Positions 7,525-31,731 of a DNA stretch of 42,120 bases are shown in pieces. The position numbers were made by a program, and so were the translations under genes. Within the stretch, counting starts at the first letter, position 1. Each line of letters opens with the position of its first letter. The stretch is from Deltaproteobacteria bacterium (GTDB lineage: Bacteria; Desulfobacterota; Desulfobulbia; Desulfobulbales; SURF-16), in NCBI GenBank assembly GCA_030667965.1, contig DAOUUW010000005.1, positions 1 through 42,120 on the forward strand, read 5' to 3'. Below the pieces are notes generated by a model. The model was not told where the DNA came from. It made no database searches and saw nothing but the letters and a program-made list of their open reading frames with translations.

Positions 7525-8655
7525 TTACTTGATATGGCTTGTAAACTTAAACTGAGTAGTCGTTCTCCAGGTATCATAAGCAAGACGATAATCATCAATA
7601 CAGTGAATGGTAAACGGAATACCTGTTTTTTCGAAAAATTTCTCCCAGCCGATTCTCTCAGCCCAGTCACCAATACGCTCGTATTTACGGGCATCTTTAG
7701 CATAGGTATCAATAATATTCTTCACTGCAGCAACGGTCTCGGGCCAGCGCGGCGGGGTGTTGGGCAGGAAAGGAATAACAAGTTTGGAGAACTTGGGATA
7801 GGAAATCCGGTTTGAAACCTTACCGCCAACCAGGATGGCAATACCGTCACCATCCGGATCAGACAGAGGCATGGCCGGACACATGGTGTAGCAGTTACCG
7901 CAGAACATACAGCGCTCATTCTTAACCTTTACGGATTTGACTTCCACGCCCTTGCTGTTGGTCGCCTTGGTGGGAGAAACAGCGCCAAGCGGACAGGAAG
8001 CAATGGCCAAGGGTAGCTCACAGAGACCGGCGATGGCGTCATGGTCAACCATAGGCGGTTTACGGTGAATACCGAGAATAGCAACATCGGAAGCATGAAC
8101 AGCACCACACATGTTCAGGCAACAGGCCAGGGCAACACGAACCTGGGCAGGCATGGTATGGCTGGTGAAGTAGTCAAACAGTTCATCCATAACCGCTTTA
8201 ACAACGCCGGAGGCGTCGGTGGCAGGCGTATGGCAATGCACCCAACCCTGGGTATGAACAATGCTGGTCATACCGGCGCCGGTGCCGCCAACAGGAAACT
8301 TATTACTGCGGCTGGCCAGATCGTCCATCAGGGGCTTCACTTTATCTTTTGCATCAACCATGAACTCAACATTGTTTCTGGTGGTCCAACGGACACTGCC
8401 TTCACAATGTTTATCTGCGATCTCGCAGATCTCACGGATGTACTCAATACTTACCAGACGGGCGGCGCCAATACGTACTGTCCAGCACTCATCGCCTGTC
8501 TCGCTTTTATGCATCAAAACGCCGGGCTGGGTGATCTCATGATAGAGCCACTTGCCGTAATTATTTTTTATAACTGGTGGGAAAAACTGCTCAAAATGTG
8601 GGGGACCTATATCTGTTATTCTATCCACCATCGGATTTGCTGGATCGTAACCCAT
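7525..8655 (-). CDS. dsrB: Dissimilatory sulfite reductase beta subunit
   Basis: Beta subunit of the cytoplasmic alpha2beta2 enzyme that reduces sulfite, with DsrC, in the last step of sulfate respiration. 376 aa, typical length. The sirohaem-[4Fe-4S] ligands are visible: C141 in [11 protein letters not shown] and C178/C179/C183 in [14 protein letters not shown]. The inserted ferredoxin domain has [12 protein letters not shown] (about 249-259). AGGAGG lies upstream of the ATG. It is separated from dsrA by 63 bp, so the two are one transcript. All cofactor ligands are intact, so the subunit should carry the catalytically competent sirohaem. Confidence 0.98.
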
Positions 8656-8718
8656 TTTTTATACCTCCTTATAGTGTCTATAAAGTAAATATCTGATTAA
8701 TGCCAATAAGAGCAGTTT

Positions 8719-9999
8719 TTATTGCGCGTGTTTTTTACGGAACTCTCTAACATCACGCTCAAAACCACCTGGAACCTCGTCTTCCTGCCAGAAAATGTAT
8801 GGATTTGAACGAGGCTCTCTGACCATCTGCGGAATAGGCTCAAGCTCCATAATCTTCATAAAGGTGGGCAGACCGACACGCTGAATGGTCTCACCAACGC
8901 GCTCACGGTTTTTACCGATTTCCATCCACCAATCCCAGATTTTTTCAATCTGCTCAATGAGTTCTTCAAATTCACTCTCAGGATCAACCTTGATAAACGG
9001 AATGGTCAAGGTGGCGAACTGAGCGCCTTCTAGGATGGGGGCTTTTGCGCCAACATTGACGGTAGCACCTGTCTCAACACCCGGACGCAATGCTCGAGGC
9101 ATAACGTTGATGCAATGCATGCAGCGTGTACACTCGGAGGTATCTATTTTCAGCTCATCGCCTTCCATCCACATACACTCAGTGGGGCAGAGACCGATGA
9201 CTTCTTTCTGGATGTCGAATGGACCCCAGTCACGGCCTGAATGGGCGCCGCCGTTTGAGGGAAATTCACCTTTTATATAGCTTTGCACTGCAGCCTGATC
9301 GATGCGGATATCGTCTTTCCAGGTACCGATAACAGCAAAGTCGGAACGGGCGAGAGCGGCAACACAGTCGTTGGGACAGCCGGAGAATTTAAATTTAAAT
9401 TTGTAGGGGAAAGCCGGGCGATGCAGCTCATCCTGATAATGCATGGTCAACCCATGGCATGCAGCCTGGGTATCAAAGCATGACCACTCGCAACGTGCCT
9501 TACCGATACAGCAGGCAGGACTACGCAGGTTGGAGCCGGAGCCGCCGAGATCCTGGTGCAGCTCATGAGTCAGTTCGTAAAACAGGGGCTCAAGATGGTC
9601 TGTAGTTGTTCCAAGTAAAATCAGGTCGCCTGTGGAGCCATGAAAGTTGGTCATACCTGAACCGTGTTTCTCCCAGAGATCACAGAGAGCACGAAGCTTC
9701 GCGGTGTTGTAAAATTTACTGGACGGCTGGTTGACACGGATGGTATGGAAGTGGGCAACTCCGGGAAACTCTTTGGGCAGGTCGGAATAACGTCCAACAA
9801 TACCACCGCCGTATCCGAAGACACCTACGATTCCACCATGTTTCCAGTGGGTGATCCTGTCATGATAAGACAGTTCCAACTGTCCAAGAATGTCCCAGCA
9901 TTCCGGTTTCTTCTCGGCCTGACGTTTAAGGTCTGTTACAAAGCTAGGCCATGGTCCTTTTTCGAGCTCGTCCAACAAGGGCGTATCACGCTTTGCCAT
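8719..9999 (-). CDS. dsrA: Dissimilatory sulfite reductase alpha subunit
   Basis: Alpha subunit of DsrAB. 426 aa, usual length. Cofactor ligands are C164 and C170 (CIGKARC) and C208/C212 (GCPNDC). The ferredoxin insertion has C290, C293 and C296 (CTRCMHC) with an upstream Cys at about 271 or 275. The sequence has the reductive bacterial character and co-occurs with dsrD, which argues against the oxidative (rDsr) type. AAGGAGG-like sequence precedes the ATG at 9999. A TTGACA promoter lies about 165 bp upstream. First gene of the dsrAB transcript. Confidence 0.98.
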   Translation of the reverse strand: MAKRDTPLLDELEKGPWPSFVTDLKRQAEKKPECWDILGQLELSYHDRITHWKHGGIVGVFGYGGGIVGRYSDLPKEFPGVAHFHTIRVNQPSSKFYNTAKLRALCDLWEKHGSGMTNFHGSTGDLILLGTTTDHLEPLFYELTHELHQDLGGSGSNLRSPACCIGKARCEWSCFDTQAACHGLTMHYQDELHRPAFPYKFKFKFSGCPNDCVAALARSDFAVIGTWKDDIRIDQAAVQSYIKGEFPSNGGAHSGRDWGPFDIQKEVIGLCPTECMWMEGDELKIDTSECTRCMHCINVMPRALRPGVETGATVNVGAKAPILEGAQFATLTIPFIKVDPESEFEELIEQIEKIWDWWMEIGKNRERVGETIQRVGLPTFMKIMELEPIPQMVREPRSNPYIFWQEDEVPGGFERDVREFRKKHAQ

Positions 10000-13654: not shown

Positions 13655-13676
13655 AATGCAAAATGCAAAATGCAAA

Positions 13677-14486
13677 ATGAAGGGCCGGCAACCCGTTTCC
13701 GGCTTCATCCGGGGACTGGTTGCCTTTTTTCTTCTGGCAATGTGGCCGCTGCATGCTTTCTGTCTGACAGGTCAGATCGATATCAATACCGCTTCAAAAG
13801 AGCAGCTGCTGGAACTTCCCTTTATCGGTGAGCAGCGGGCTGATGCCATTATCAGTTACCGCCGTGAGCGCGGCGATTTTACCAATCTTGACGAACTGCT
13901 CGACGTAACGCACATCGGCGAAAAATCTCTGGAAGCGATAAAGCCGTATCTCTCCATTGGCCCTACCCTCCAACCCCGCGACGATCATGCCGCCACCGCT
14001 TTCCATAAAAAAATAAGCACCCGACCCGGCGATATTGTTATGCTGCCGGATGAAACATATTACGACACATTGGTCGATTTTATCAGGGGCGCAGACCATT
14101 CCATCGACATAGCCATGTTTCTTTTCAAGACCACCTCCTCCCCGCAAAACAGAGCGGCGCTGCTTGTGAAAGAGCTGATTAAGGCTCGTAAAAAAGGGGT
14201 GACGGTCCGGGTGGTTCTGGAAAATTCAGGCTATGCAGAGTCCATCAATAAAGAGAACAAAAAAGTGGCGGCTACATTGCGCAAAAACAAAATCAAGGTT
14301 GTCTTTGATTCACCGAACATAACGACCCATGCAAAAATAGTGGTCATTGACAAACGCTACTCATTCATCGGCAGTCATAATTTCAGCCATTCGGCCCTGG
14401 CCTTTAATCATGAATTTTCCGTCCTCATCGACAACCGCGAACTTGCCGGAAAGTTGGTTAAATACGTGGAAGCAATTGATAATTGA
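13677..14486 (+). CDS. Exported HhH-phospholipase D domain protein
   Basis: A 269-aa protein with a hydrophobic signal sequence (LVAFFLLAMWPLHAFC). It has a ComEA-type helix-hairpin-helix DNA-binding domain (IDINTASKEQLLELPFIG...HIGEKSLEAIKPYL), then one phospholipase-D domain with an intact HKD motif (HAKIVVIDKRYSFIGSHN). Single-HKD proteins of this size act as dimeric nucleases (Nuc type). With an HhH domain, a periplasmic DNA-processing or uptake role is plausible. An ATG at 13656 in the same frame would add a stretch encoded by a tandem AAAATGC repeat, so the ATG at 13677 is preferred. Neither has a good ribosome site. It follows the flavoprotein gene closely. Confidence 0.8.
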   Translation: MKGRQPVSGFIRGLVAFFLLAMWPLHAFCLTGQIDINTASKEQLLELPFIGEQRADAIISYRRERGDFTNLDELLDVTHIGEKSLEAIKPYLSIGPTLQPRDDHAATAFHKKISTRPGDIVMLPDETYYDTLVDFIRGADHSIDIAMFLFKTTSSPQNRAALLVKELIKARKKGVTVRVVLENSGYAESINKENKKVAATLRKNKIKVVFDSPNITTHAKIVVIDKRYSFIGSHNFSHSALAFNHEFSVLIDNRELAGKLVKYVEAIDN

Positions 14487-14576: not shown

Positions 14577-15863
14577 ATGTCAATTGACGAAGCATTACAC
14601 GAAGCCCTTTCCTTGCAGCAACAGGGCAAAATTAATAAAGCCCTGAATCTTTGCATCAATCTGCTTGAAAGCGCTGCTGATGATTTCCGTCTGCATTTTT
14701 TACTGGGCATGCTGCACAATCAGGTGAATGAAACTGATGCGGCCATCACCCATTTCTCAGAGGCAGTCCGGATCCACCCCGGACTTGACAGGGGGCACTA
14801 CAACCTGGGCGTTCTTTATTTTGCCGGAGAGGATTTTGAACAGGCCAAATCGTCCTATGAACAGGCTGCCGAGCTTTGCCCTGATGACCCGGACATTTTT
14901 TTCAACCTGGCCCTCACTGTTAAAAACATGGGTCTCTTCCAGCAGGCCCGGCAGCATTATGAAAAGGTGCTGGCTTTAACGCCTGAAGACCACGAGGCCC
15001 ATTACAATCTTGGCGTTCTTTTCAGGGAAACCGATGAAACAGAAGCAGCCATCAGATCTTTTGAAAAAGCCGTCGCTATCCATCCTTCATATATTCAAGC
15101 CCACAACAATATGGCCTATCTCTTTCACAAGATGGGACAGAGTGAAAAAGCTCTTGCCTGCTACCGGAAGGTACTGGAGCTCGACCCCACCCACCAGTCT
15201 GCCGGCCATATGGTTGCGGCCCTGTCCGGCGAAACGACAAACACCTCCCCGCTGTCCTATGTGAAAGATCTTTTTGATCAATTTTCAGATGATTTTGACG
15301 AAGCGCTCCTGCAAAAGCTGCAGTACGGAACGCCTGCCATGTTGCGGCAAATGCTTGATGAGGAGAAAGGACTTGAAAGGGTCTTTCAAAACGGACTGGA
15401 CATGGGCTGCGGCACCGGTCTTTCCGGGCTCGCCTTTTCAGACAGGACAAAACGCTTTACCGGCCTTGACCTTTCAACCGGAATGCTGGAAAAGGCAGCA
15501 GAAAAAGGGGTATACAGCATATTGCAGGAAAGCGACATAAACTCTTTCCTGACTGAGACGGAAGAGGTGTTTGATCTCTTTCTCGCCGCCGACGTTTTTG
15601 TCTATCTCGGTGACTTAAGCGACATTTTTGAACGTGTCAGAAAAAAATCAGCACAAGCGGGCTGTTTTCTTTTCTCCACGGAGACCTGCGGAGAAAACTT
15701 CACCCTGCAGACATCAGGACGCTATGCCCATGCTGAAAGCTATATACGAAAACTTACAGCGCAAACAGGTTTTGCAATGATGTGTTGTAAACCTGCCAAA
15801 CTGCGGCGGGAAAGAGATGGGTGGATCATGGGCAATCTTTTTCTTCTGCGAGCAACAAACTGA
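14577..15863 (+). CDS. TPR-methyltransferase fusion protein
   Basis: A 428-aa protein. Residues 1 to about 215 hold roughly five to six tetratricopeptide repeats (HYNLGVLYFAGEDFEQA, HYNLGVLFRETDETEAA, HNNMAYLFHKMGQSEKA). The C-terminal half is a class-I SAM-dependent methyltransferase with the glycine-rich motif I LDMGCGTGLSG, then TGLDLSTGMLEKA and DLFLAADVFVYL. The TPR part probably selects a protein partner or substrate. No signal peptide. The start lies right after a low-complexity tract and has no obvious Shine-Dalgarno. The methyl acceptor cannot be told from sequence or context. Confidence 0.88.
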   Translation: MSIDEALHEALSLQQQGKINKALNLCINLLESAADDFRLHFLLGMLHNQVNETDAAITHFSEAVRIHPGLDRGHYNLGVLYFAGEDFEQAKSSYEQAAELCPDDPDIFFNLALTVKNMGLFQQARQHYEKVLALTPEDHEAHYNLGVLFRETDETEAAIRSFEKAVAIHPSYIQAHNNMAYLFHKMGQSEKALACYRKVLELDPTHQSAGHMVAALSGETTNTSPLSYVKDLFDQFSDDFDEALLQKLQYGTPAMLRQMLDEEKGLERVFQNGLDMGCGTGLSGLAFSDRTKRFTGLDLSTGMLEKAAEKGVYSILQESDINSFLTETEEVFDLFLAADVFVYLGDLSDIFERVRKKSAQAGCFLFSTETCGENFTLQTSGRYAHAESYIRKLTAQTGFAMMCCKPAKLRRERDGWIMGNLFLLRATN

Positions 15864-15899: not shown

Positions 15900-18425
15900 T
15901 TACTTCTTGCGGCGGACAACAACCTTTCTTGTTTTGCCACTGTCGCTGCTTCCCTTTTTACGGCGCACCAGAATTTTTTTCTTTTTTACAGGCGTCTCTT
16001 CCGCTACCGGTTCGTCACCTTCCCCACTGTGGAGAGGTTGCTGATAATTGCAGCCTGCCTGGGGACAGCGCAGAACCACCGAACCGTCATTCAGCTTTTT
16101 CTCCACCAGGAAGGGAGACGAGCAATCCGGACAACTGATCGAATGAGGCATGGACCAGGCCATAAACTCACAGTCGCGGCCTGAGCAGGCATACATTTTT
16201 TTACCGGTGGGGGTACGCTCTATTTTGATGGATCCTTTTTCACATAAGGGACAGATGCGGTCCAGCTTTTCTTCCAACGTACCAAATGATTCCGTGTGAC
16301 GACAGGCTGGATAACCGGAACAGGCCCAGTATTGGCCATAACGATCATTCTTCAGCAACAGCGGCCTGCCGCATTGGGGACACTCCCTGATATCCATGGT
16401 CCCGGAAACAGCAGGCTCTTCAACAGGAGCAGTCTTGCCAGCTGATTCCTCGACAGGCTCCTCCGGCAAAACATCGGCGTGCACCTCTGCCGTCTTCCCG
16501 GGCCCTTCATCTTCCACCTCCAGGGCATTCTCAGCATCATCCTCTTTTACATTTTCCTGCTCCGCTTCCTCCACTTGGCCTGCAGATTCCACTGCCGCCT
16601 CTTCTTCAACAGGCAAGGCTTCCGGCTGCAGAGCCTCATCCAGCTCAATTTCCGCTTCTTCCGACTGAAGCGGTTGGGCCGGTTCCGGCATTGCACTTTT
16701 AATTATATTTTTAGATCTCTGTGTTCTCAGCGGCACGAGCGGAGTGACATTTGGACGTTGCGCCTTCACCAGGGAAACTCCCTGCATGGCACAATTCTGA
16801 TCAAACTGTTTCATGGCAAAATCAAAGGGCTTGCGACCACTTACAACTTCGGCAACCGTCTGTTCAAAGTAGGCCGACAGATTAATCCCCTTCATCTTCG
16901 GAAAAACACGCTCCATTATGGCAACAACTTTTGCCGTGTTGGCCTGACAATGAAAGCCACCTTCTGCGTCAAGGCTCACATAACCCTTATCAATCATATC
17001 CTGCAGCATGACAATAACAGGAGATTCAACCGGCGGGGAGAAATCCAGCAAATCATCCAGCAGGGTTGTAATAGTATAATTTTCCACCAACCCTGTGGAA
17101 ATCTGCTCCGGCAAAATCTGCTTCGCCACAAACTTTTGTCCACTCTCAAGTTCCGGCAGGGATTTATTTTGCAATAACTCCCCATCGCAACCGCCCGGCA
17201 GTGCAGCCAAAAAGCCCTTTTCCATCAACAAAGATTTTTTCCCATGGAACAAACAACTGCCTGCGGCAAATTCCGCTTCAAGACTACGCCCCCTGGCCTG
17301 GCCCATCTGGCTCGCCAAAGCCCGGCAACGGATGAGTTCATATAGCTGCTCCTCGTCCCTGCTGACACATTGCGTCAGGTCAAACCCCTGACGCTCCTGA
17401 ATCAGAGGCAGAATACAGCCCTCTTCCACCGTCCTTTCCACCAGATTCTCTTTGCCGAAAACCGCCTCTACCTCCTGCCTTATCCGCTTGAGGCTTATCC
17501 CATGATCGACAGGCACATGACTAAATGGCGCAGTAATAAGACCGGCACATTTCCCGTCAATCTCAACACCGCTGTACAGCTTTTTTAAAACATGCATGAC
17601 CTGCAGCGGCCCCATGGAAAGCTTGACAAAACCATCATGCAGCAGCGGCGACAATAGATAGGGCTGCGGCGGCTCCAAGGCGAAATCGGATTCCAGCGGA
17701 TTATTCACCCAGAAAGACCGGCCGCCAAAAAGGGCCACCGCCTTTTTCACCTGATCAACATTTCCCAGCAGGCCGTCTACGCTCAGCCCATCCGCCTCTT
17801 TTAAAACAACCGAAAAATCCCCCTTGGGAAGGGCCAAGCGAACCGAAATGCGCCATTTGACAGGAGAGGGAAAAGACGCAATCTCCGTCTCTCGTTCCTG
17901 CAGAAGAAACAGGATTGTCAACGTCTGGTGCTGCAATTGCAGGCCGCCCGGTCCACTGCCGGTACCAAGAAGACGATGCAGATGTCCGGTCAGGCAGGAA
18001 TTAAACAAAGTCCTGATATACAGAGAGGCGCCAATCTCGCCCTGAACAGGGCAAGGCCTGCGAAAACTTTCGGCAATTTCCTGCTGAGTAAAGCCGGATA
18101 TATGGATGCGTTTTACATTCTCAGCTCCTGAGCTGTAAAGAAAACAGGCAATCATCCAGCTGCGAAACTCGCCAATTCGGTCACTGTCCAGGGCCAGATA
18201 AATATCGTGGTCTAAATAGGAAAGCAACGTGCCGAGCAACTCTTTTTCCTCTTCCACACCGGCAAAGTGAAAACCGCTCAAACCGGTGTGGAGACCTGCA
18301 TCCTTTGCATCATGACTGATCTTGACAGGCAAAGAACGTAAGACAAGCGTCTCGAATGTACCGTCCGACTGATCGTGTAATGATTTGGCCTTTTCCTCGG
18401 ATTCGACAAGCACCAATGATGGCAT
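15900..18425 (-). CDS. Degenerate topoisomerase I-like protein with three C-terminal zinc fingers
   Basis: An 841-aa protein with the type IA topoisomerase plan. The N-terminal TOPRIM begins LVLVESEEKAKSL. Its acidic motif reads LALDSDRIGE (about 79-86) where TopA has DxDREGE, so one acid is Ile84. The region matching SAGRVQS reads GPGGLQL, and the strand that normally holds the catalytic tyrosine, LITYMRTDS, reads LITAPFSHV (Ala299). An acidic linker (about 570-665) leads to three topoisomerase-type zinc fingers (about 682-793: CPQC...C, CPLC...C, CPDC...C) and a KKKKILVRRKK-type basic tail. Single-strand cleavage is therefore unlikely, but DNA or RNA binding should remain. The ATG at 18425 follows AAAGGAG. 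Function unknown. Confidence 0.85.
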   Translation of the reverse strand: MPSLVLVESEEKAKSLHDQSDGTFETLVLRSLPVKISHDAKDAGLHTGLSGFHFAGVEEEKELLGTLLSYLDHDIYLALDSDRIGEFRSWMIACFLYSSGAENVKRIHISGFTQQEIAESFRRPCPVQGEIGASLYIRTLFNSCLTGHLHRLLGTGSGPGGLQLQHQTLTILFLLQERETEIASFPSPVKWRISVRLALPKGDFSVVLKEADGLSVDGLLGNVDQVKKAVALFGGRSFWVNNPLESDFALEPPQPYLLSPLLHDGFVKLSMGPLQVMHVLKKLYSGVEIDGKCAGLITAPFSHVPVDHGISLKRIRQEVEAVFGKENLVERTVEEGCILPLIQERQGFDLTQCVSRDEEQLYELIRCRALASQMGQARGRSLEAEFAAGSCLFHGKKSLLMEKGFLAALPGGCDGELLQNKSLPELESGQKFVAKQILPEQISTGLVENYTITTLLDDLLDFSPPVESPVIVMLQDMIDKGYVSLDAEGGFHCQANTAKVVAIMERVFPKMKGINLSAYFEQTVAEVVSGRKPFDFAMKQFDQNCAMQGVSLVKAQRPNVTPLVPLRTQRSKNIIKSAMPEPAQPLQSEEAEIELDEALQPEALPVEEEAAVESAGQVEEAEQENVKEDDAENALEVEDEGPGKTAEVHADVLPEEPVEESAGKTAPVEEPAVSGTMDIRECPQCGRPLLLKNDRYGQYWACSGYPACRHTESFGTLEEKLDRICPLCEKGSIKIERTPTGKKMYACSGRDCEFMAWSMPHSISCPDCSSPFLVEKKLNDGSVVLRCPQAGCNYQQPLHSGEGDEPVAEETPVKKKKILVRRKKGSSDSGKTRKVVVRRKK

Positions 18426-18486
18426 TTCACCAGCTCCTTTGAGCAAAAATAATTTGCAAGAACTAAAAATTGTATTCCTTGCGGCG

Positions 18487-18612
18487 ACTGGAATTTCAGT
18501 CTTTATGTAACTTTTTACAAAGGTGCGCAGCGCACCCTACCTGGAATCAACATGTTAGCCCTTGTAGGGTGCCGCATTGCGCACCATCAATATTGAAACT
18601 CCAAATTCCAGT
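18487..18612. repeat. Nested palindromic element with GTAGGGTGC core, copy 2
   Basis: Outer 10-bp inverted repeat ACTGGAATTT (18487-18496) / AAATTCCAGT (18603-18612). Inside is an inverted pair GGTGCGCAGCGCACCCTAC (18522-18540) and a diverged partner at 18564-18585, related to the element at 6284-6374. It occupies most of the 356-bp gap between the divergent topoisomerase-like and SUMF1-like genes. A run of C's and the palindrome CTCCCTCGAGGGAG follow at about 18707-18743. No clear promoter was found. Confidence 0.8.
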
Positions 18613-18781
18613 GTAGCGATAATCCAGGAGAAAATCAAAATATAGATTTTTTGTTTTTCCTTCAGTATGCTGAGACATTGACATAGTCATAAATTATACC
18701 ACCTTCCCCCCCCTCCAACCCTCATGACTCCCTCGAGGGAGAGGGAGCAACTGCCACTGAAGGGGTCAAACAGGATACATC

Positions 18782-20722
18782 ATGGCATTAATAACTCTAC
18801 AGGGAATGGATCAGGCCGTTGCCGGTCTCAACGTCAAGACGGAGACGCTGAAAGGACGCCTCATTGCCCTTATCCGCTCCTCGTTCGCAACAGAGGAAAG
18901 TATTTCCGACATCTCCTCCATCCCGGCGGAAGATCTAATCGCAGAACTGTGGGGTATTGATGATCCGGATGCAATTCGCCGGAAAAAGAAAAATCTCAGC
19001 AGCCTCAAGTCCGCAATCAATAAGACTCTTAAACAACTGACCACGGAAGGAAACAACCCGGAAGGGCTGATTATCAGTCAATACAACGTCTTTGCCATAT
19101 CAGACGAACATAAGAACGACATACTGGAAAAGCTGGGAATCAACGCCTCCCAAGATCCCGGCGACCTTCTGGCCGCCTTTCGTCAGTTGGTGGATGAAAT
19201 GGTCAAGGGCGACACCGGCGGCGACGGGCAGAATACCTCAATTAACCTTCTTGACGAACTCGACAAGGCCAGAGAGCTGGTGGCAAATCTCACTGGAAAG
19301 CAGGCACACCCGTATGGTAACCAGGATGGTGAAGAGGGTGGTGACACAGGCACGGGAACAGGCACCGAAGAAGTTGAGGAGTTTGAGCTTGCAGAGGATG
19401 AGGACATTGAAATTGTTAAACAAGGAGGCAACAGGGACGAAATTGGAGATGGAAGTGAAGATGGGGATGAATCCGAGTCCGCTGGTGGAGTTGAAGAAGA
19501 ACCGGAATTACTCGGAGAGATGGAAGAACTGGAGATCGAAGATGATGAACTTGAGGAGATAGAAATTGATGAGGTTGATGAAATCTCAGAACAGGGAGGA
19601 GAGGGAGAACTTGATGATGGAGGGAGTGAGGGAGAGGGCGGATTCGGCGAAGGGGATGAACTGATCGAAGAAGCCGATGAGATTGAAATTGACGAAGACG
19701 AGATTATTGAGGAAGAAGACGAGATTATTGAGGAAGAAGATGAGATTATTGAGGAAGAAGACGCTGATGAATTTGAAGAAATTGAATCAGCGGAAGAGAA
19801 TGGCGGCACAACAGCAGAAGACGACGAACCCGGAAGCCCAATGGATATCAGCCATTACATCGAACCGGATGAGGCCCTTGCCTCCCCCACAGATACATTA
19901 ATGGAAAGCCATAACGATTACCTGAAACAAATCATCGAACGGTTCATGCCCAAATTCATCAAGATTACATCAGACTCATACCAGACAGGACGCCGACATC
20001 CCAGGCACAACGAACGACCCCGGCAGTTAATCACGCTCGACACTTTCCACATAAGCCAACTGCCGGTCACCAACGACCTCTTTGATTTTTTCGTACGGGA
20101 AACCGGCTATGAAACCGACGCGGAGAAAACAGGTTTCGGTACCGTTGTAGAAGGACGAATCAGCAACCGCATAGACCCGTATACAGGACATGTCATCATA
20201 TCCATCGGCCAGGGAACACGCTCACATCGCGAACAGGGGGCAAACTGGCGGCATCCTTCCGGGCCGGACAGCTCCCTGGAAAACAAAACAAATCATCCGG
20301 TGGTGCAGGTCAGCCGCCGTGACTGCCAGGCCTTTGCCTCCTGGGCGGGCAAGAGGCTGCCGACCGAAGACGAATGGGAGGCCGCAGCCCGTGGATCTGC
20401 AGGATTCCTTTTCCCATGGGGTAATGAGTGGAACAGCAAACTGGCCAACTGCGAATCATCCCATATTGGCGACACCACCCCTGTGCTACATCATGGCAAA
20501 GAATCCATGAGTCCTTTCGGCCTCTACGATATGCTCGGCAATGTCTTTGAATGGACGGCAACGCTTTTTCAGTCTCCCACCCGACAAGGGTCTGGAAACG
20601 TATCGCCAATTTATATCCTCAAGGGCTGCAGCTGGTCATCAAAACCAGATATCAGCGCTGCCGCACGCCTCCTTGAAAGAGAAACCTGGTCAAACATCAT
20701 CGGATTCCGCTGCGCGGTTTGA
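18782..20722 (+). CDS. SUMF1/FGE-like domain protein with long acidic region
   Basis: A 646-aa cytoplasmic protein. Residues 1 to about 175 are helical and unrecognised. Residues about 190-345 are extremely acidic (Glu/Asp about half) and include three direct repeats of DEIIEEE. The C-terminus (about 375-646) is a formylglycine-generating-enzyme/C-type-lectin fold (HPVVQVSRRDCQAFASWAGK, RLPTEDEWEAAARG, YDMLGNVFEWTA, GFRCAV). The two active cysteines of true FGE are replaced: the segment equivalent to GGSYMCHRSYC reads GCSWSSKPDIS. No sulfatase is nearby, so it is probably a binding or signalling domain. AGGA precedes the ATG. It is divergent from the topoisomerase-like gene. Confidence 0.85.
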   Translation: MALITLQGMDQAVAGLNVKTETLKGRLIALIRSSFATEESISDISSIPAEDLIAELWGIDDPDAIRRKKKNLSSLKSAINKTLKQLTTEGNNPEGLIISQYNVFAISDEHKNDILEKLGINASQDPGDLLAAFRQLVDEMVKGDTGGDGQNTSINLLDELDKARELVANLTGKQAHPYGNQDGEEGGDTGTGTGTEEVEEFELAEDEDIEIVKQGGNRDEIGDGSEDGDESESAGGVEEEPELLGEMEELEIEDDELEEIEIDEVDEISEQGGEGELDDGGSEGEGGFGEGDELIEEADEIEIDEDEIIEEEDEIIEEEDEIIEEEDADEFEEIESAEENGGTTAEDDEPGSPMDISHYIEPDEALASPTDTLMESHNDYLKQIIERFMPKFIKITSDSYQTGRRHPRHNERPRQLITLDTFHISQLPVTNDLFDFFVRETGYETDAEKTGFGTVVEGRISNRIDPYTGHVIISIGQGTRSHREQGANWRHPSGPDSSLENKTNHPVVQVSRRDCQAFASWAGKRLPTEDEWEAAARGSAGFLFPWGNEWNSKLANCESSHIGDTTPVLHHGKESMSPFGLYDMLGNVFEWTATLFQSPTRQGSGNVSPIYILKGCSWSSKPDISAAARLLERETWSNIIGFRCAV

Positions 20723-21970: not shown

Positions 21971-23248
21971 TTACATTGATTCACCGGATGCAGCAGCCTG
22001 CATTTTAACCTCAACTTTCTCAGTGAGGCTTCCATAGTACAACTTCAGGTGATCAAGAACTTCAATACGACCAAAATGATCTACGATTTCAGCACCTTCG
22101 GACAAAGCTTTACGCAGCTTGGTACCGGAGAGGATAACGCGATCGTCTTTGGTGTGGTTACAGGTACGCAGAGAAGCCATACCGTCACATTTGTGGCAGT
22201 AGAAGGTCCAGTCGATCTTCATCGGCCTGCACTGCAGATCTTTTCCGGTATCACCGGTCTGGGGGATTTTGTCAAAAATTTCCTGGGCTTCGAACAGACC
22301 GTAAAAATCACCAACACCAGCGTGATCACGACCGATCAGCATGTTGTTTACACCGTAATTCTGGCGGAAGGTAGCATGGAGCAGACCTTCACGAGGACCG
22401 GCATAACGCATATCCAGAGGATATCCGGCGTTGATTACATTGTCTTTTACAAAGTAGTTCTCGATCAGAATATCAATAGCTTGAACACGGGTATCAGCAG
22501 GAATATCACCTGGTTTCAGGTTACCGATCAAAGAATGAATCAGTACGCCGTCACATACCTCAACGGCGATCTTGCACAGATACTCATGGGAACGATGCAT
22601 GGGGTTACGCAGCTGCAGGGCGGCAACGTTGCTCCAGTTTCTTTCCTCAAACATGGCACGGGTCTCGGCAGGTGTCAGGTAAACACCTTTGTACTCTGTC
22701 GGATATGTGCCCTCGGACAGAACTTTTACAGGACCGGCGATGTTAACTTCTTTCTGGGCCATAACCATGATAACGCCGGGATGATCTTCTTCTGCGATTT
22801 TCCAGAAGGTATCACCCTGGGACTCTTCACCTTCGCCTCTGAATACTTTCTCACATTCCCATTTTTTGTCGGCATCGGACATTTCAAATTTTTCATCGAC
22901 CTTCATGGTAGCAAGAACTACACCATTGCGGACGAGAGCAATCTCTTCACCGGTTTTGAAAGAATCAGCCTCAGCTTTAGTGACGTCAAGAGTAATCGGT
23001 ACAGGCCAGAAGGTACCGTCTGCCATCTGGAAATTCTCACAAATGCCTTTCCAGTCAGCTTTGCCCATGAAACCGGTCAGGGGACTGAAACCACCGATAC
23101 CCATCATGATCAGGTCGCCTTTAGCGCGGGCGCTTACTTCAATCTGCTTCATACCGGCTGCTCTCTCTTGCTCAGCTTCCAGTGCACCACCATGAAGCAG
23201 TGCACATACAAGACCTTTTCCACCATGAGGCTCAACTAAGTTTGCCAT
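21971..23248 (-). CDS. sat: Sulfate adenylyltransferase (ATP sulfurylase)
   Basis: Activates sulfate to adenosine 5'-phosphosulfate in the first step of dissimilatory sulfate reduction, or runs in reverse to make ATP during sulfur oxidation or disproportionation. 425 aa from the ATG at 23248, preceded by AAGGAG; a longer frame to 23311 has no ribosome site. Catalytic motifs are [13 protein letters not shown] (nucleotide-binding QxRNPxHxxH) and [13 protein letters not shown] cysteine-rich C-terminal stretch ([14 protein letters not shown]) is the zinc site of the dissimilatory bacterial/archaeal homo-oligomeric type. The perfect TTGACA-N17-TATATA promoter upstream suits a very highly expressed enzyme. 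Monocistronic. Confidence 0.97.
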
Positions 23249-23298
23249 TTGATTCTGTCTCCTTAAGATAAAGTTAAAGTCAAATAAGTCCTCTAACA

Positions 23299-23359
23299 AA
23301 TAATGAACCATTATTCATTTTCACCCAATCTATATAAAGGGGAGACTAAATGTTGTCAA
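23299..23359 (-). promoter_or_regulatory. sat promoter with inverted repeat in the leader
   Basis: On the minus strand TTGACA (23354-23359), a 17-base spacer and TATATA (23331-23336). The predicted start is near 23324, giving a leader of about 75 nt. In the leader, AATAATG-aac-CATTATT (23299-23315) is a perfect 7-bp inverted repeat that could be an operator. Confidence 0.8.
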
Positions 23360-23470: not shown

Positions 23471-23914
23471 TCAGACTTTTTCGTCAAAGAGCAGACCGAC
23501 GAGATCCTTTAATTTAGCGCGCAGCTTAAGAACTTCTTCGGACGGGAACTGTTTGAGAATCTCCCCGGTGTTTCTGTCGCGAAGCTGGGCCACAATACTT
23601 TTACTCTCAAGATGCTCGTGCAGACCAAAATTAAAGGAACTGCCCATGGCGTCAAAACGGCCCTGGATCTCCTCCACTGCGTCCTCAAGCTCCTCCTGGG
23701 AGATCTTGCCATCTCCCTTTTCACCCTTTTCACCCTTTTCACCCTTTTTACCCTTGCCGTGCAGGGCCTGGTCATTGAGCTTGACAGTGTCCCCCTCACC
23801 GCTTGCCGGTACAGGCTGAACCGGCGGTTTTTGCGCATCTTCCATCTCAATCGTGGGGACTGAGGGCACACCATACATTTTGACATCAGTCGTTACGTTG
23901 ACATCTACCATCAT
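23471..23914 (-). CDS. flaG: FlaG family flagellar protein with collagen-like repeat
   Basis: A 147-aa protein. The C-terminal half (about 75-147) is the FlaG domain (ISQEELEDAVEEIQGRF...LHEHLESKSIVAQLRDRNTGEILKQFPSEEVLKL). FlaG affects flagellar filament length. The N-terminal half is disordered and holds an unusual GKKGEKGEKGEKGDG collagen-like Gly-x-x run, encoded by tandem 9-bp units. The start is one of two adjacent ATGs (23914 or 23911) after GGAGG. It is the last gene of the fliD-fliS-fliT-like-flaG set on the minus strand. Confidence 0.88.
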   Translation of the reverse strand: MMVDVNVTTDVKMYGVPSVPTIEMEDAQKPPVQPVPASGEGDTVKLNDQALHGKGKKGEKGEKGEKGDGKISQEELEDAVEEIQGRFDAMGSSFNFGLHEHLESKSIVAQLRDRNTGEILKQFPSEEVLKLRAKLKDLVGLLFDEKV

Positions 23915-23963
23915 GATAACCTCCAATTGCCTAAATAATCTGACAAGTCAACTTAAAACACAT

Positions 23964-24359
23964 TCATGTTCGGCTGCTTAAATATTTCGGTTTCGGACCG
24001 GCTCCGGGAGAAAGGCTGTATCCTTGCAGCACTTTTTTCCCCTTACGCATTGTCCGCAATTTTTCTTCAATCACTGTTCTCTGTTGTCCAGCCAGAGTCT
24101 TCAGAGATTGTTCTCCAAGCAAAATTTCCTTTATCTTTTCCAGGATCTGCCCGGCAACCTCTCTTTCTCCAGAGCCCGGTCCCAGATCAACGCCCTCAAA
24201 ACAGCGCTTCAACCGCATAAAAACCTGCTGACGCCTGTCATACCAGGAAGGCAAAGATTTTAATCTGTTTCCGGCAAGCAGCTGCGCATGCTCCCGCTGC
24301 ACCTCGGCAAATTCTTCCAAAGCGGCGGCAATTTCACTGGGGCCTTCATAGCTGATCAT
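23964..24359 (-). CDS. FliT/FlgN-like flagellar export chaperone (putative)
   Basis: A 131-aa, mostly helical, charged protein (IAAALEEFAEVQREHAQLL, WYDRRQQVFMRLKRCF, GQILEKIKEILLGEQSLKTLAGQQ) ending in a basic tail. It lies 12 bp after fliS and before flaG, the place where FliT, the FliD chaperone, is often found. Length and helical pattern fit FliT or FlgN, whose sequences are poorly conserved. The call depends mostly on context. No clear Shine-Dalgarno, so it is probably translationally coupled to fliS. Confidence 0.6.
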   Translation of the reverse strand: MISYEGPSEIAAALEEFAEVQREHAQLLAGNRLKSLPSWYDRRQQVFMRLKRCFEGVDLGPGSGEREVAGQILEKIKEILLGEQSLKTLAGQQRTVIEEKLRTMRKGKKVLQGYSLSPGAGPKPKYLSSRT

Positions 24360-24371
24360 ATCGCCACCGCG

Positions 24372-24863
24372 TTACACTGAAAAAGACAGACCCTGCACCG
24401 CAGCTTTTGCAGGACCGACATTCATCTTTCTCTCCTCCAGATCAGGGCGGGCAAAACCTCTTGATTCCGCTTTCTTTTTTTCATACCCGTCCTGCATGGC
24501 TGTCTGTTCCCATATTTCCTTCAGACGCTTGATATAGGAAATGGTCTGCTGGACAATTTTGGCATCGTCTGCAATAGCCGCTTTCGGCAATTCCACCAGG
24601 ATAGCACTATAAAGCCCCCGCAGAAAAAGAGCTGCTTCCGAGGTATCGTCTTCCTTTACCGAGGCATTCAGTTCAGCGATGATAGCAATGGCCTTCCCCA
24701 GATTCTCTCCCCGTATCTTGGGATCTTTCCCGGCTATCCCCACACCTGTCATCTCCAGATGAGTCAGGGCTCTCTCATACATCAGATGAATAAGCTTTAC
24801 AGGATGAATTTGAGACTGGGATTCTGATTGCCGATAGGCGTTATGTGCCTGAGCTGAATTCAT
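24372..24863 (-). CDS. fliS: Flagellin chaperone FliS
   Basis: A 163-aa cytoplasmic chaperone that binds the flagellin C-terminus and prevents premature polymerisation. The core (AHNAYRQSESQSQIHPVKLIHLMYERALTHLE...RGENLGKAIAIIAELNASV...LRGLYSAILVELPKA) is typical FliS. The C-terminus is about 30 residues longer than usual (EKKKAESRGFARPDLEERKMNVGPAKAAVQGLSFSV). AAGGAG precedes the ATG. Second gene after fliD. A CCCCTC/GAGGGG hairpin lies in the fliD-fliS gap. Confidence 0.95.
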   Translation of the reverse strand: MNSAQAHNAYRQSESQSQIHPVKLIHLMYERALTHLEMTGVGIAGKDPKIRGENLGKAIAIIAELNASVKEDDTSEAALFLRGLYSAILVELPKAAIADDAKIVQQTISYIKRLKEIWEQTAMQDGYEKKKAESRGFARPDLEERKMNVGPAKAAVQGLSFSV

Positions 24864-24962
24864 TATATTCTCCTTATAAACCCCTCTCTTGAGGGCGATG
24901 GACAGAGTGAGGGGCGGACTAGTTTATTAAATATTATATAAGATTGCGTGTCAAGCTGCAGC

Positions 24963-26681
24963 CTAATCACTGCTGCCGATCCACGACTTGGAAATACTAT
25001 CAAACTGGTTGGTCAAATAACTTGAAAGCGACGTCATCTGGTTCATATATCGGTCTAACTCAATAAACTGCTTTGTCATCAATTCATATTTTTTATCCAG
25101 CCTGCCATTTTCCTGTTCAATCTTCAATTCCAGATCATCAATTCGCGACTGGGCGGTAGTTTTCTCCCCAGCTATCTGACCGGTAAAACTAGTCAGCGAA
25201 CGAAGTCGGTCATTTACCTTATCGGCAAATCCTTCAATATCACTATCAATATCCCCAAGAAAAAAGGCACTGACCCCATCAGGGTTATCAGCAATAGCCG
25301 CATCAAGCATTTCTTCATCGAGAGAGATGGAGCCGTCCCGGTTAAACTCCAGACCGAGACCAAAAAGCGAGGTGATATTTTCATCCTCATCGGCATAGAC
25401 AAAGGAAGTCATCAGACCCTGCAAAGTGGAGGGCAAATCTCGCACGGTGGTGCCGGAGAGAATGCCGAACTGTTCAGTCTCACTGTCATAATTTATGCTT
25501 GCGTTTATCTCCTGCACGGCTTCATTATAGGCGGTTACCAGGGCCTGGATCATCTCTTTTGTCTGGTCTACGTTTTTACTGATGGTAATTGTTACTTCTC
25601 CGGCGCCTTCAAGATTGATGGTCAATCCGGAGACAACATCCGTAACAGAATTCGTCTGACGCTGGTAATTGATGCCATCCACACTGAACTGGGCGTTCAG
25701 CGAGGCCTCTTCAGCCCCCTGCTGCTCCTCCATGGCCATATCGGCAAGCTGTGACAAAAAGGAGATGCGCCCGTCCTCGCCCGTACTGTTCGAGCGCAGG
25801 CTGAGACGATAGGGCGCGATGGCGTCACCATCGTTTATAACCGCAGCAGTCACACCCGGATTGTCGTCTGCATCGTTAATAAGGGCGGCAAGACCTGTAA
25901 TGGATATATCGGCAGCTACGGTAACGGAAACAGTATCTCCATCGCCGACCTGATAAAACAGGGTTTTTTCAGGGGCGGCAAAATCAAAATCCGCCATATC
26001 TTCAGAGATCATGACCCGGTTGTCCTCGCCGGTGCCATCGGCCACATCAGAACGGATGCGGAGAAAATCTTCCCCGTCCACGGTATAGGTTTCGGCTGTG
26101 ACAAGACGACCATTGTCCCCTGCTCCGACGTTGTCGGCATGGCTGTTAATGGCCGAGACCAGATCATCCATGGTCATATTGGTTGCAATGGAAAGAGCAA
26201 TTTCATTGCCGTCGCCAAAGGTAATGGTCATGCTTTCCCCGGCCTGGGCAACAATGTCGACGCCGGCATCCGCCACGCCGGCGGTGGACTCCTGACTCAC
26301 CGGCACATAGACGCTTGCAGTGGAATCAGCCGTGCCCGTTGCGGACAGCCAGGAACTCTTTGCGGCAAGACGGGTTATATCAAGAGAAAGACTCTGGGCT
26401 ACGGTTCCATCCACCACGGTGCCCGTCGTTGCCACCGTTTCATCGGAACTGGCCACCGTCCGCCCCAAAAACGAACCCTGCAAAGAAAGATCCAGAGCAG
26501 CCCTTTTCATGGTAAGCAGCTTATTGTTTACCATGGTAAACTGGTTCAGCTGATTTCCAAGGGTGGTAATCTCATTTTCCTTGCGGGTAACGACTTGCTG
26601 GTCTATTTCCCGCAACTGCTCAAGCATCCCCTGAAGATCGATACCGGACCCGATACCTAATGTCGTTATTGCCCCTGCCAT
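24963..26681 (-). CDS. fliD: Flagellar filament cap protein FliD
   Basis: A 572-aa capping protein (HAP2) that promotes flagellin polymerisation at the filament tip and is exported by the flagellar type III system. The N-terminus is GIGSGIDLQGMLEQLREID. A flagellin-hook IN motif region (DDLVSAINSHADNVG) lies in the middle, and the C-terminal coiled coil is typical (ELKIEQENGRLDKKYELMTKQFIELDRYMNQMTSLSSYL). The ATG at 26681 encodes MAGAITTLG, the canonical start; the frame extends further but into a low-complexity tract. Somewhat longer than the enteric protein because of a larger variable domain. Confidence 0.95.
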   Translation of the reverse strand: MAGAITTLGIGSGIDLQGMLEQLREIDQQVVTRKENEITTLGNQLNQFTMVNNKLLTMKRAALDLSLQGSFLGRTVASSDETVATTGTVVDGTVAQSLSLDITRLAAKSSWLSATGTADSTASVYVPVSQESTAGVADAGVDIVAQAGESMTITFGDGNEIALSIATNMTMDDLVSAINSHADNVGAGDNGRLVTAETYTVDGEDFLRIRSDVADGTGEDNRVMISEDMADFDFAAPEKTLFYQVGDGDTVSVTVAADISITGLAALINDADDNPGVTAAVINDGDAIAPYRLSLRSNSTGEDGRISFLSQLADMAMEEQQGAEEASLNAQFSVDGINYQRQTNSVTDVVSGLTINLEGAGEVTITISKNVDQTKEMIQALVTAYNEAVQEINASINYDSETEQFGILSGTTVRDLPSTLQGLMTSFVYADEDENITSLFGLGLEFNRDGSISLDEEMLDAAIADNPDGVSAFFLGDIDSDIEGFADKVNDRLRSLTSFTGQIAGEKTTAQSRIDDLELKIEQENGRLDKKYELMTKQFIELDRYMNQMTSLSSYLTNQFDSISKSWIGSSD

Positions 26682-26711
26682 GGTTTCTCTACTTTTTTGA
26701 GGCTGAAGGTT

Positions 26712-26861
26712 GATGGTCTCGTAAAAAGTCCATTTTGTCGTCATTCCCGCGTAGGCGGAAATCTATAACGTATTAAAATTACTGGATCGAAGTCTACGCT
26801 TATCTCCCGTTTTCACGGGAATGACAATTCCCAGTCAATTTTGACTTTTTACGGGTTCATC
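26712..26861. mobile_element. 150-bp inverted-repeat (MITE-like) element with CGTAAAAAGTC ends
   Basis: The ends are imperfect inverted repeats: GATGGTCTCGTAAAAAGTC on the left and GACTTTTTACGGGTTCATC on the right. An inner inverted pair is GTCATTCCCG / CGGGAATGAC. AAGGTT lies directly outside both ends (26706-26711 and 26862-26867) and may be a 6-bp target duplication, although the surrounding tract itself is repetitive. No coding capacity. The rest of 26682-27138 is AT-rich and without a gene; I found no convincing promoter. Confidence 0.75.
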
Positions 26862-29101: not shown

Positions 29102-31552
29102 TTACCCCTGCAGCAGACTCAGAACATTCTGTGCACTTGCATTGGCCTGGGCCATGGCAAAGGTGCTTGCCTGGGTCAGGATCTGCATTTTGGAGAAGTT
29201 GGCTGATTCCTCGGCAAAGTCAACGTCCCTGATGGAAGATTCAGCAGCAAAGATGTTAACCCTGGTGACCGAGATATTGGAAATTGTCGCGGTCAACTGG
29301 TTCTGCACGGAACCAAGGTCGGAACGAACCTTATCCAGAGACTTCAGGGCGGAGTCAGCCACGGAGATGGCAATCTGGGCTCCCTCCTGGGAGGTGACAT
29401 TCACATCAGCCAACCGGTAGGACTGGGCTCCGGAGACATCGGATTCTACGGTATCAGCGACCTGGGCATCGTTGGCAGCCAGAGTAGTACCTGCAGCCAG
29501 AATAGAACCTTCATTAATGACCATGTCATTGGCCAGAGCAGCATTCGTACCTGTGACAATATCATACTCAAGGGTGGTTCCTTCAGCATAGGTAGTGCCA
29601 TCGTCAGCAAGAATGTCATTGGTCAACACGGTGCCTGCCGTCAAGGTAGAGCCATCAGCAATATCCGAACCAGCCGCTATCAGCATATCCGTATTTTCGG
29701 ATACAACTTCAACATCAACCGTAGTAACGGTAGCGCCAAGGGATGATCCATTGGCCAACAGAGTATCGGCAGAAAGAGTACTGCCCAATTGCAGGGTCAT
29801 ATTATCGGTCACGGTACCACTAGCAGCCACAGCATCGTTTGAAAAAACGGTTCCGGCCTCAAGCACACTGCCCGCAGTAATTGAAGCAGTAGTGCTTGTC
29901 AACATTGTCATATCGGAGCCAAGGGTAACAGTACCAGAAGCTGTATAATCATCACCAACAATTGTCGTACCTGCGGCAAGCGTAGTGCCGGCGGCCAGTA
30001 TAGAGCCTGAGGCAATGGTAGCACCACCGGTCAAAGTCAAGCCGGTTGCAATGATATCCGCACCGGTGTTGGTAACATAGGTATTACCACCACTGACCAC
30101 AACATTACCAGCTGCTGCACCTGAAAGGCTTTGCGACACATCGCCCTCAAAAACAGAGCCACTTGCAATAAGTGTAGCAGCTCCTCCGATCAACTGTGTC
30201 CCAGTAATCACCGTACTATCTCCACCATCGGTGGTGATAGCTGTCGACGTCATGACATCGCCAGTTACAGTGGAACCAGAACCAATTATCGAGTTGTCGG
30301 CAAGGATTGATCCAGCGGCTATAATATTATTATCATCAACCATCCCTGTCACTGCACCTGTAGTGGTAAAAGTACCCGCAATAACAGTCCCAGAGGCCAG
30401 GGATGCACCATCAAGCAAAGAACCTTCTGTCACGGTCATTAACTGAGTGCTTGCAGCCATAGCACCAATTTCCATCAACCCATCCGCAGTGGACACGGCA
30501 ATACCGGCCTGGGCATTGGCATCGGTGATCAAAATCTCACCAGCGCCATTCTGGGTCATCTTGATCTGACCGAGGGTGTCGCTTACACCGCCAAGAACAG
30601 CCATGGTATCGTCGGTTCCTGTTATCTGGATGGCACGATCATCGGTGGAGGTCAGGGTAAGGACACCGGCCTGATCCACAGAGGCGAGCAAACCATGCTG
30701 ATCGGTCTTCTGGTTGATGGAGGCCACCAGAGCGCCGTTGGCATCATTCTCCTGAATTGCGAGAGCACCAATAACAACACCGTTAATGGCAAAGCTGGAA
30801 TCCGTGCTGCCGGCGGTAATATTGCCGGTACCGCTGGTCTCCACCTGGGCCGCAGCGGTGATACCAAGAACATCACTCAACTTATTGATGGCATCGGCAA
30901 CTGCGCCGAGACTGTTGTCACGGGTGTTGTCAAAGGCCAGCTCAATGGAATTAAGGGAGTAGGTCTGATCCTGCAGGTTACTGTAGATGTTAAGCTGCGT
31001 TGTTCCCTCACCGCCAAAAGTCAGGTTGGAGGTGGCGATATGACCGACTTTGGTGGACTCACTGGAAGCGATGGAAATACTGACGGTCTCTCCCGAGTAG
31101 GCGCCTACCTGGAACTTTTTATTGGTAAAGTTACCGGAAAGAAGCTTCTGGTTGTTAAAAGAAGTGGTCTTGGCAATGATATCCAATTCCTGCATCAGCT
31201 TATTGATATCAGCCTGGATCGCTTTACGGGATTCCGTCGTCTGACCGTCCTGGGCGGCCTGAATTGACTTGGTTTTAATGCTGTTGACAATATTGATGGA
31301 CTCATCCAGGGCACCATCTGCGGTCTGCACCATGGATATACCATCATTGGCATTCCTGATTGCCTGACCAAGACCCAAACCCTGAGAACGCAACGAGTCG
31401 GCAATGGCCATACCCGAGGCATCATCAGCAGCCTTATTAATTCGCAGACCGGATGACAATTTTTCCAGAGAAGCCGACAAAGCATTATCGTTTTTAATCA
31501 TGTTTTTGTGGGCGCTTAACGCTGCCACATTGGTGTTAATTCTTAAAGCCAT
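29102..31552 (-). CDS. fliC: Flagellin with very large repeat-containing variable domain
   Basis: Main filament protein, 816 aa against 270-500 for most bacterial flagellins. The terminal D0/D1 domains are intact: MALRINTNVAALSAHKNM...KLSSGLRINKAADDASGMAIADSLRSQ at the N-terminus and RVNIFAAESSIRDVDFAEESANFSKMQILTQ...NVLSLLQG at the C-terminus. Residues about 375-700 are a low-complexity Ser/Thr/Gly/Ala-rich run of short repeats (SGSILAAGTTLAAGTTIVG, AAGSDIADGSTLTAGTVL) suggestive of a parallel beta-helix. They offer many Ser/Thr for O-glycosylation. The ATG at 31552 follows GGAGG. A sigma-28 promoter is upstream and a Maf/legionaminic acid locus lies beside it. Confidence 0.95.
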   Translation of the reverse strand: MALRINTNVAALSAHKNMIKNDNALSASLEKLSSGLRINKAADDASGMAIADSLRSQGLGLGQAIRNANDGISMVQTADGALDESINIVNSIKTKSIQAAQDGQTTESRKAIQADINKLMQELDIIAKTTSFNNQKLLSGNFTNKKFQVGAYSGETVSISIASSESTKVGHIATSNLTFGGEGTTQLNIYSNLQDQTYSLNSIELAFDNTRDNSLGAVADAINKLSDVLGITAAAQVETSGTGNITAGSTDSSFAINGVVIGALAIQENDANGALVASINQKTDQHGLLASVDQAGVLTLTSTDDRAIQITGTDDTMAVLGGVSDTLGQIKMTQNGAGEILITDANAQAGIAVSTADGLMEIGAMAASTQLMTVTEGSLLDGASLASGTVIAGTFTTTGAVTGMVDDNNIIAAGSILADNSIIGSGSTVTGDVMTSTAITTDGGDSTVITGTQLIGGAATLIASGSVFEGDVSQSLSGAAAGNVVVSGGNTYVTNTGADIIATGLTLTGGATIASGSILAAGTTLAAGTTIVGDDYTASGTVTLGSDMTMLTSTTASITAGSVLEAGTVFSNDAVAASGTVTDNMTLQLGSTLSADTLLANGSSLGATVTTVDVEVVSENTDMLIAAGSDIADGSTLTAGTVLTNDILADDGTTYAEGTTLEYDIVTGTNAALANDMVINEGSILAAGTTLAANDAQVADTVESDVSGAQSYRLADVNVTSQEGAQIAISVADSALKSLDKVRSDLGSVQNQLTATISNISVTRVNIFAAESSIRDVDFAEESANFSKMQILTQASTFAMAQANASAQNVLSLLQG

Positions 31553-31731
31553 TCTATTTTCCTCCGTGAGAAATAAACATCGAAAATTCCTTTTTCCGAT
31601 GTAGTGCTGCGGCAAGGCTCATCCCTGCTGCATTTATTGACAAATTGTTCTTTTCTATCCTTTTTCTCAGCACCCCCTTTTGTTTTTTTTAAGCCCAAAA
31701 AAAGTAAACGTAATTTTGTTATCCAATAACC

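Follow-up and report, generated by a model that had tools for sequence, protein, structure and literature searches.

Few DNA enzymes are as conserved or as intensively studied as topoisomerase I, and the locus described here raises the question of what a relative of this enzyme does once its catalytic residues are gone. The gene lies in a stretch of 42,120 nucleotides, referred to as the window, and encodes a pseudo-topoisomerase I, designated PAR. The initial annotation described a full-length TopA relative with the TopA fold markers and an intact 841-codon frame, without catalytic residues, maintained rather than decaying, and perhaps a scaffold or a modulator of the real TopA.

The gene, its domains and its fold

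The PAR frame starts with ATG and runs for 841 codons with zero internal stops. Its parts are arranged as follows.

15900..18425, minus strand: PAR, pseudo-topoisomerase I, 841 aa, intact frame
18051..18425, minus strand: Toprim/domain I N-terminal part, residues 1-125, keeping the equivalents of E9, K13, D111 and D113
codon 18174-18176, minus strand: Ile84 in place of E115, within Toprim
17856..18050, minus strand: domain IV, first part, residues 126-190, also in short forms
17088..17855, minus strand: domains II/III, residues 191-446, missing from short forms
codon 17529-17531, minus strand: Ala299 at the catalytic Tyr position
16758..17087, minus strand: domain IV, second part, residues 447-556, also in short forms
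16398..16757, minus strand: acidic linker, residues 557-676, evolving fast
16026..16397, minus strand: zinc-ribbon region, residues 677-800, three C4 ribbons
15903..16025, minus strand: conserved basic C-terminal tail (KKILVRRKKG...RKVVVRRKK)

In Pfam searches, Topoisom_bac matched PAR at 2.3e-19, Toprim appeared only below threshold, and the Zn_ribbon_Top1 match covered only the first of three CxxC-type ribbons; the second and third were read from family-invariant cysteines, both ribbons being invariant across the family. The NCBIfam TopA model TIGR01051 scored 142 bits against a cut-off of 456, as expected of a divergent relative. The AlphaFold model, built from a 37-row alignment, exceeds a pLDDT of 90 across most of residues 1-550, and Foldseek matched it to the TopA of E. 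coli (E 5.7e-36) and of S. mutans (TM 0.81). PAR meets the test for the type IA topoisomerase fold, a four-domain toroid with C-terminal zinc ribbons, and the claim of a full-length TopA relative with an intact frame held by Pfam, AlphaFold and Foldseek. The source genome also encodes a normal TopA (G000:C61, L001), on a contig other than that of PAR, and a fragment whose start resembles TopB (G000:C176).

Loss of the active site

Eleven canonical TopAs of the order, among them the genome's own L001, served as references in an alignment of PAR and its relatives. The TopA segment GLITYMRTDS reads GLITAPFSHV in PAR, placing Ala299 at the catalytic Tyr and Phe301 where TopA has Arg two residues later, and the test for the catalytic Tyr with its Arg (YMRTD) is not met. 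DPDRE reads DSDRI, with both Asp retained and the last acid, E115, replaced by Ile; three of the four Toprim acids (E9, D111, D113, E115) are present, and the test requiring them is likewise not met. By these criteria and by its TIGR01051 score below the cut-off, PAR does not qualify as a TopA enzyme, only as a TopA fold. SAGRVQ aligns with GGLQLQ, the place of this loop in the first part of domain IV being occupied by the motif HLxRLLGTxxGPGGLPL. Arg321, His365, Arg493 and Thr496 are also gone, while K13 is retained alongside E9, D111 and D113.

These losses extend across the 37 full-length PARs. Tyr319 is missing in 36, with Ala, Ser or Thr there in nearly all; the lone apparent Tyr, in L075 (ILYPDQ), has no Arg behind it. 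Arg321, His365, S192, R195 and Q197 are missing from all 37, and E115 is present in just one. Retention is highest at E9 (E or D in 37) and K13 (35), followed by D113 (32) and D111 (30), the last two being variable in several members. A misaligned Tyr elsewhere in the loop was considered and rejected, as a profile alignment to solved TopAs also puts Ser, Thr or Ala at this position. The active-site loss across orthologues is far beyond chance; that none of the 37 proteins has a working active site is inferred from sequence alone.

The initial reading of Ala at the catalytic Tyr position (LITAPFSHV) was confirmed by this alignment. The letters DSDRI for DxDxE also held, although the loss is only partial, and loss of the SAGRVQ loop held, the aligned segment reading GGLQLQ.

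Selection, ancestry and charge

Reading frames are open in all 37 full-length PARs, and dN/dS between close pairs ranges from 0.14 to 0.31. By region, values are 0.10-0.15 in Toprim (0.15), domains II-IV and the ribbons, 0.26 in the basic tail and 0.50 in the acidic linker. In a midpoint-rooted tree, the full-length PARs form a single clade with support of 100 on a long stem, separate from TopAs both within the order and from other groups. Family-specific motifs are strongly conserved, including HLxRLLGTxxGPGGLPL, the hallmark of the second part of domain IV (FPxMxGiNLSAYxEQTvxEVxSGRKxxxxAxxQFDQ), the two invariant ribbons and the doubled KVxVRR tail. PAR is kept under purifying selection in dozens of sulfate-reducing bacteria, and decay or a frameshift artefact was rejected on the alignment and selection data. 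The claim that the gene is maintained held on the same losses in orthologues across the order, low dN/dS and a single clade. Either a conserved Tyr with a full DxDxE or frameshifted, decaying orthologues would have refuted the initial annotation, and neither condition was met.

The mean net charge of the core is -12 in PAR versus +7 in TopA, with -21 in the PAR linker and +10 in the tail. Since the core is acidic, the hold of the former groove on DNA has probably weakened greatly, and polyanions are likely bound by the tail and ribbons; both statements are inferences.

The FGE-fold partner

Upstream of PAR lies a divergently encoded gene, which, like the shortened forms of PAR found elsewhere and the retention of D111 and D113, had not been noticed initially.

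18426..18781, no strand: intergenic region common to the divergent pair, from coordinates
18782..20722, plus strand: acidic FGE-fold partner, 646 aa
18782..19141, plus strand: conserved helical N-terminal domain of the partner, residues 1-120, no Pfam or PDB relative found
19955..20716, plus strand: FGE-sulfatase (SUMF1-like) domain of the partner, without the catalytic Cys pair

In the partner, a helical N-domain of about 120 aa is followed by a long acidic stretch and then by the FGE-sulfatase domain. AlphaFold models the N-domain with a pLDDT of 78-91 across most of its length; no convincing relative was found in Pfam or the PDB, and the domain was not found among viral contigs or plasmids. 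Beyond residues 1-120 the model is poor, and its Foldseek hits confirm only the FGE part. The FGE-sulfatase fold test is met by PF03781 (1.2e-48) and by PDB hits, the best of which is SUMF2 (E 1e-35). The test for the catalytic Cys pair is not met: the family reads ILKGGSWxTGGxxTAAxR at GGSxxCxxxxC, the place of this pair in true FGEs.

Since targets of diversity-generating retroelements often use the FGE fold, the partner C-terminus was considered as such a target; this was rejected, as no reverse transcriptase occurs among the window genes examined, a search confined to the window. Contigs often end at the acidic repeat of the partner gene (window 19300-19860, and in relatives), so draft genomes probably under-report the pair.

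Pairing within the order and phylum

The partner adjoins PAR divergently in 38 of the 39 loci with sequence upstream. Among 44 loci from named genomes, 38 show this arrangement; of the remaining six, five begin at the edge of a contig and in one, L078, the PAR frame is broken. Of 58 relatives, 29 have both genes, one has only the partner and one only PAR, giving 30 carriers of each. A phylum sample of 395 genomes was searched with the partner N-domain, recovering 17 genomes, and with PAR-specific motifs, recovering 18, the motif search separating PARs cleanly from ordinary TopAs (at least 54 versus at most 45 bits). Both genes occur in 17 of the 395, PAR only in one and the partner only in none; in the PAR-only genome, G231, PAR sits at a contig end and the next gene runs off the contig. 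G025 and G013 are likewise solitary cases located at contig ends. Fisher's test for this co-occurrence gives 7e-29, a value that ignores shared ancestry and is illustrative only.

In G021, G035, G005 and G023, PAR and partner are both missing between the same flanking genes, leaving the site intact. The same-genus genome G001 was left out, as its contig ends just past the TPR-methyltransferase gene and gives no clean loss. Elsewhere the flanks (aroB, sat, the PLD-HhH protein and an oxidoreductase) are stable, indicating that the pair occupies a fixed chromosomal site. Co-occurrence within the order partly reflects physical linkage and vertical descent. The pairing itself has good support; the biochemical role is an inference.

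Neighbouring genes of the window

A fusion of helix-hairpin-helix and phospholipase-D-like nuclease domains (window 13656-14486) matches DrmC models in PADLOC and stably accompanies the pair in many loci. The gene at 14577-15863 encodes TPR repeats fused to a methyltransferase domain and adjoins PAR in some of the loci. Side by side lie two genes of the nitrite/sulfite reductase type, which probably encode subunits of dissimilatory sulfite reductase; with an ATP sulfurylase gene (window 7525-9999 and 21971-23311), they are consistent with a sulfate reducer or disproportionator. A fliD/fliS/fliT/flaG cluster (window 23471-26744) lies near the gene of an unusually long flagellin of 837 aa (window 29102-31615).

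Short forms and ParA-type genes outside the order

Outside the order, all 13 sampled partner-bearing genomes, from six families, also have a PAR relative. These relatives are about 460-520 aa long, except in G422, and retain the domain IV parts, the ribbons and the basic tail, lacking Toprim and domains II/III. G422 carries a full-length PAR whose frame is broken into overlapping pieces (L078:4285-7212 = G422:C216, L185), possibly through decay or an assembly error.

The order of the PAR-relative and partner genes varies, including operons with overlapping frames, divergent pairs and convergent pairs, and in G422 and G532 the two lie on separate contigs. A partnership that stays constant while the arrangement changes gives the best indication of a functional and not only positional link.

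In several of these lineages, the PAR relative and the partner are separated by genes for a ParA-type ATPase and for A5, a small uncharacterised protein; ParA is missing from the PAR locus in the window's order. Cassettes of ParA-type ATPase, A5 and short PAR occur at L168:8454-11257, L170:1513-4125, L101:793-3604 and L173:2-2003, with the FGE partner divergent beside them. A5 proteins share the motif DLDWG...DIVxYNxQVAYxLxFDIK, and the ParA P-loop of L173 appears altered. A5 was not found in the window's order, by a query without a positive control in the sample.

Proposed function and alternative explanations

The lost catalytic residues, intact fold, selection, single origin, near-absolute co-inheritance and the parts that survive reduction are all shown at the level of sequence. 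On this basis, the explanation given a modest preference is that PAR serves as a nucleic-acid-binding scaffold, derived from TopA but without catalysis, in concert with the acidic FGE-fold partner; no binding, complex or phenotype data are available. In this model, a TopA duplicate would have given up strand cleavage long ago, yielding a nucleic-acid-associated scaffold that forms half of a two-protein module. PAR and its partner are inferred to bind each other directly. The working surfaces would be the parts common to full-length and short forms, namely the hallmark helices of domain IV, two ribbons and the KVxVRR tail; the helices may hold the partner, while the ribbons and tail may grip nucleic acid (DNA or RNA) or the acidic stretch of the partner. 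The complex would act on the nucleoid, joined in some lineages by the ParA-type ATPase. Two observations weigh against the scaffold: the acidic core argues against the old groove still gripping DNA, and the kept E9, K13, D111 and D113 leave room for some remaining metal or nucleotide function, which would be superfluous in a pure scaffold. The initial suggestion of a scaffold is upheld as part of this reading of PAR as a dead but maintained TopA paralogue, with binding inferred.

A bolder extension, clearly less likely than not at present, is an undescribed nucleoid-organising or cargo-positioning system in Thermodesulfobacteriota, in which a complex of pseudo-TopA and acidic pseudo-FGE coats or tethers nucleic acid and is driven by ParA in some lineages. 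The nucleoid or positioning role rests solely on the ParA neighbours and remains a minority reading.

The initial annotation's other suggestion, a modulator of the real TopA, stays a possible rival. PAR would be an antagonist or modulator whose zinc ribbons compete for single-stranded DNA or RNA polymerase, tuning supercoiling, with the acidic partner titrating PAR. A canonical TopA is present alongside PAR in the carriers checked, and few parts of PAR are better conserved than its ribbons and basic tail. However, the short forms retain only domain IV, ribbons and tail, many close relatives manage TopA without the pair, and no regulation shared with topA, itself on another contig, was seen. 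Less plausible is a different chemistry, in which the Toprim site (E9, K13, D111, D113) binds metal for a nuclease or nucleotide-handling activity without tyrosine. The retention of these residues (37, 35, 30 and 32 of 37, E9 as E or D) and the Toprim dN/dS of 0.15 favour it; the loss of E115 in 36 of 37, the variation of D111 and D113 in several PARs and the complete absence of Toprim from the short forms of the module speak against it.

A defence or toxin-antitoxin-like module, in which the acidic FGE-fold protein neutralises a DNA-binding effector, would fit the patchy presence, the joint absence at one site and the acidic-basic complementarity of partner and PAR. It is nevertheless very unlikely: PADLOC matches neither protein, searches of viral contigs and plasmids did not recover the partner N-domain, the pair occupies an old, fixed site in the order rather than a mobile one, and the supposed effector has lost its catalytic residues. 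Ordinary decay of a TopA duplicate could account for the missing active-site residues and for the broken frame in one relative outside the order (G422/L078), but 37 intact frames, dN/dS of 0.14-0.31, conserved new motifs and a single old origin all but exclude it.

Significance and comparison with known systems

No description was found of a whole family that keeps the complete TopA fold while discarding cleavage. The literature searched, which left most subscription journals out of scope, contains no description of the pseudo-topoisomerase I family or its partner pairing, and the words paralog and inactive are absent from a 2024 review of type IA topoisomerases. The dead FGE companion and the forms trimmed to domain IV and ribbons make non-catalytic roles of TopA domains directly testable. 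The pair suggests that sulfate reducers have a layer of nucleoid biology still unknown; if the bolder reading is true, lineages with only domain IV, ribbons and tail show which parts of TopA can be reused without catalysis.

PAR resembles bacterial TopA (type IA) in its full toroidal fold, domain order and C-terminal C4 ribbons. It differs in lacking the catalytic Tyr, Arg321, His365, SAGRVQ and the last Toprim acid, and in having an acidic core and linker, a basic tail and a near-constant partner. The TopA of Streptomyces with a lysine-repeat C-terminus, an active and highly processive enzyme (PMC7398561), likewise places a basic C-terminal stretch on a TopA-fold protein; unlike it, PAR has no active site and its tail is built of KVxVRR. 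Outside the order, several lineages carry a ParA-type gene next to the pair, recalling the ParA/Soj partition ATPases, but no ParB homologue was seen beside this gene, A5 being found instead. The partner shares its FGE-sulfatase domain with the FGE/SUMF family and is closest to human SUMF2, the paralogue of human FGE; it differs in having no catalytic Cys pair and in the fusion of this domain to a long acidic stretch and a novel N-domain. Although the biochemical role is unproven and both folds are known, neither a family of pseudo-topoisomerases I nor its pairing with a pseudo-FGE protein was found in the literature searched, and the evidence points to an undescribed two-protein system made of two enzyme folds that have both lost their chemistry.
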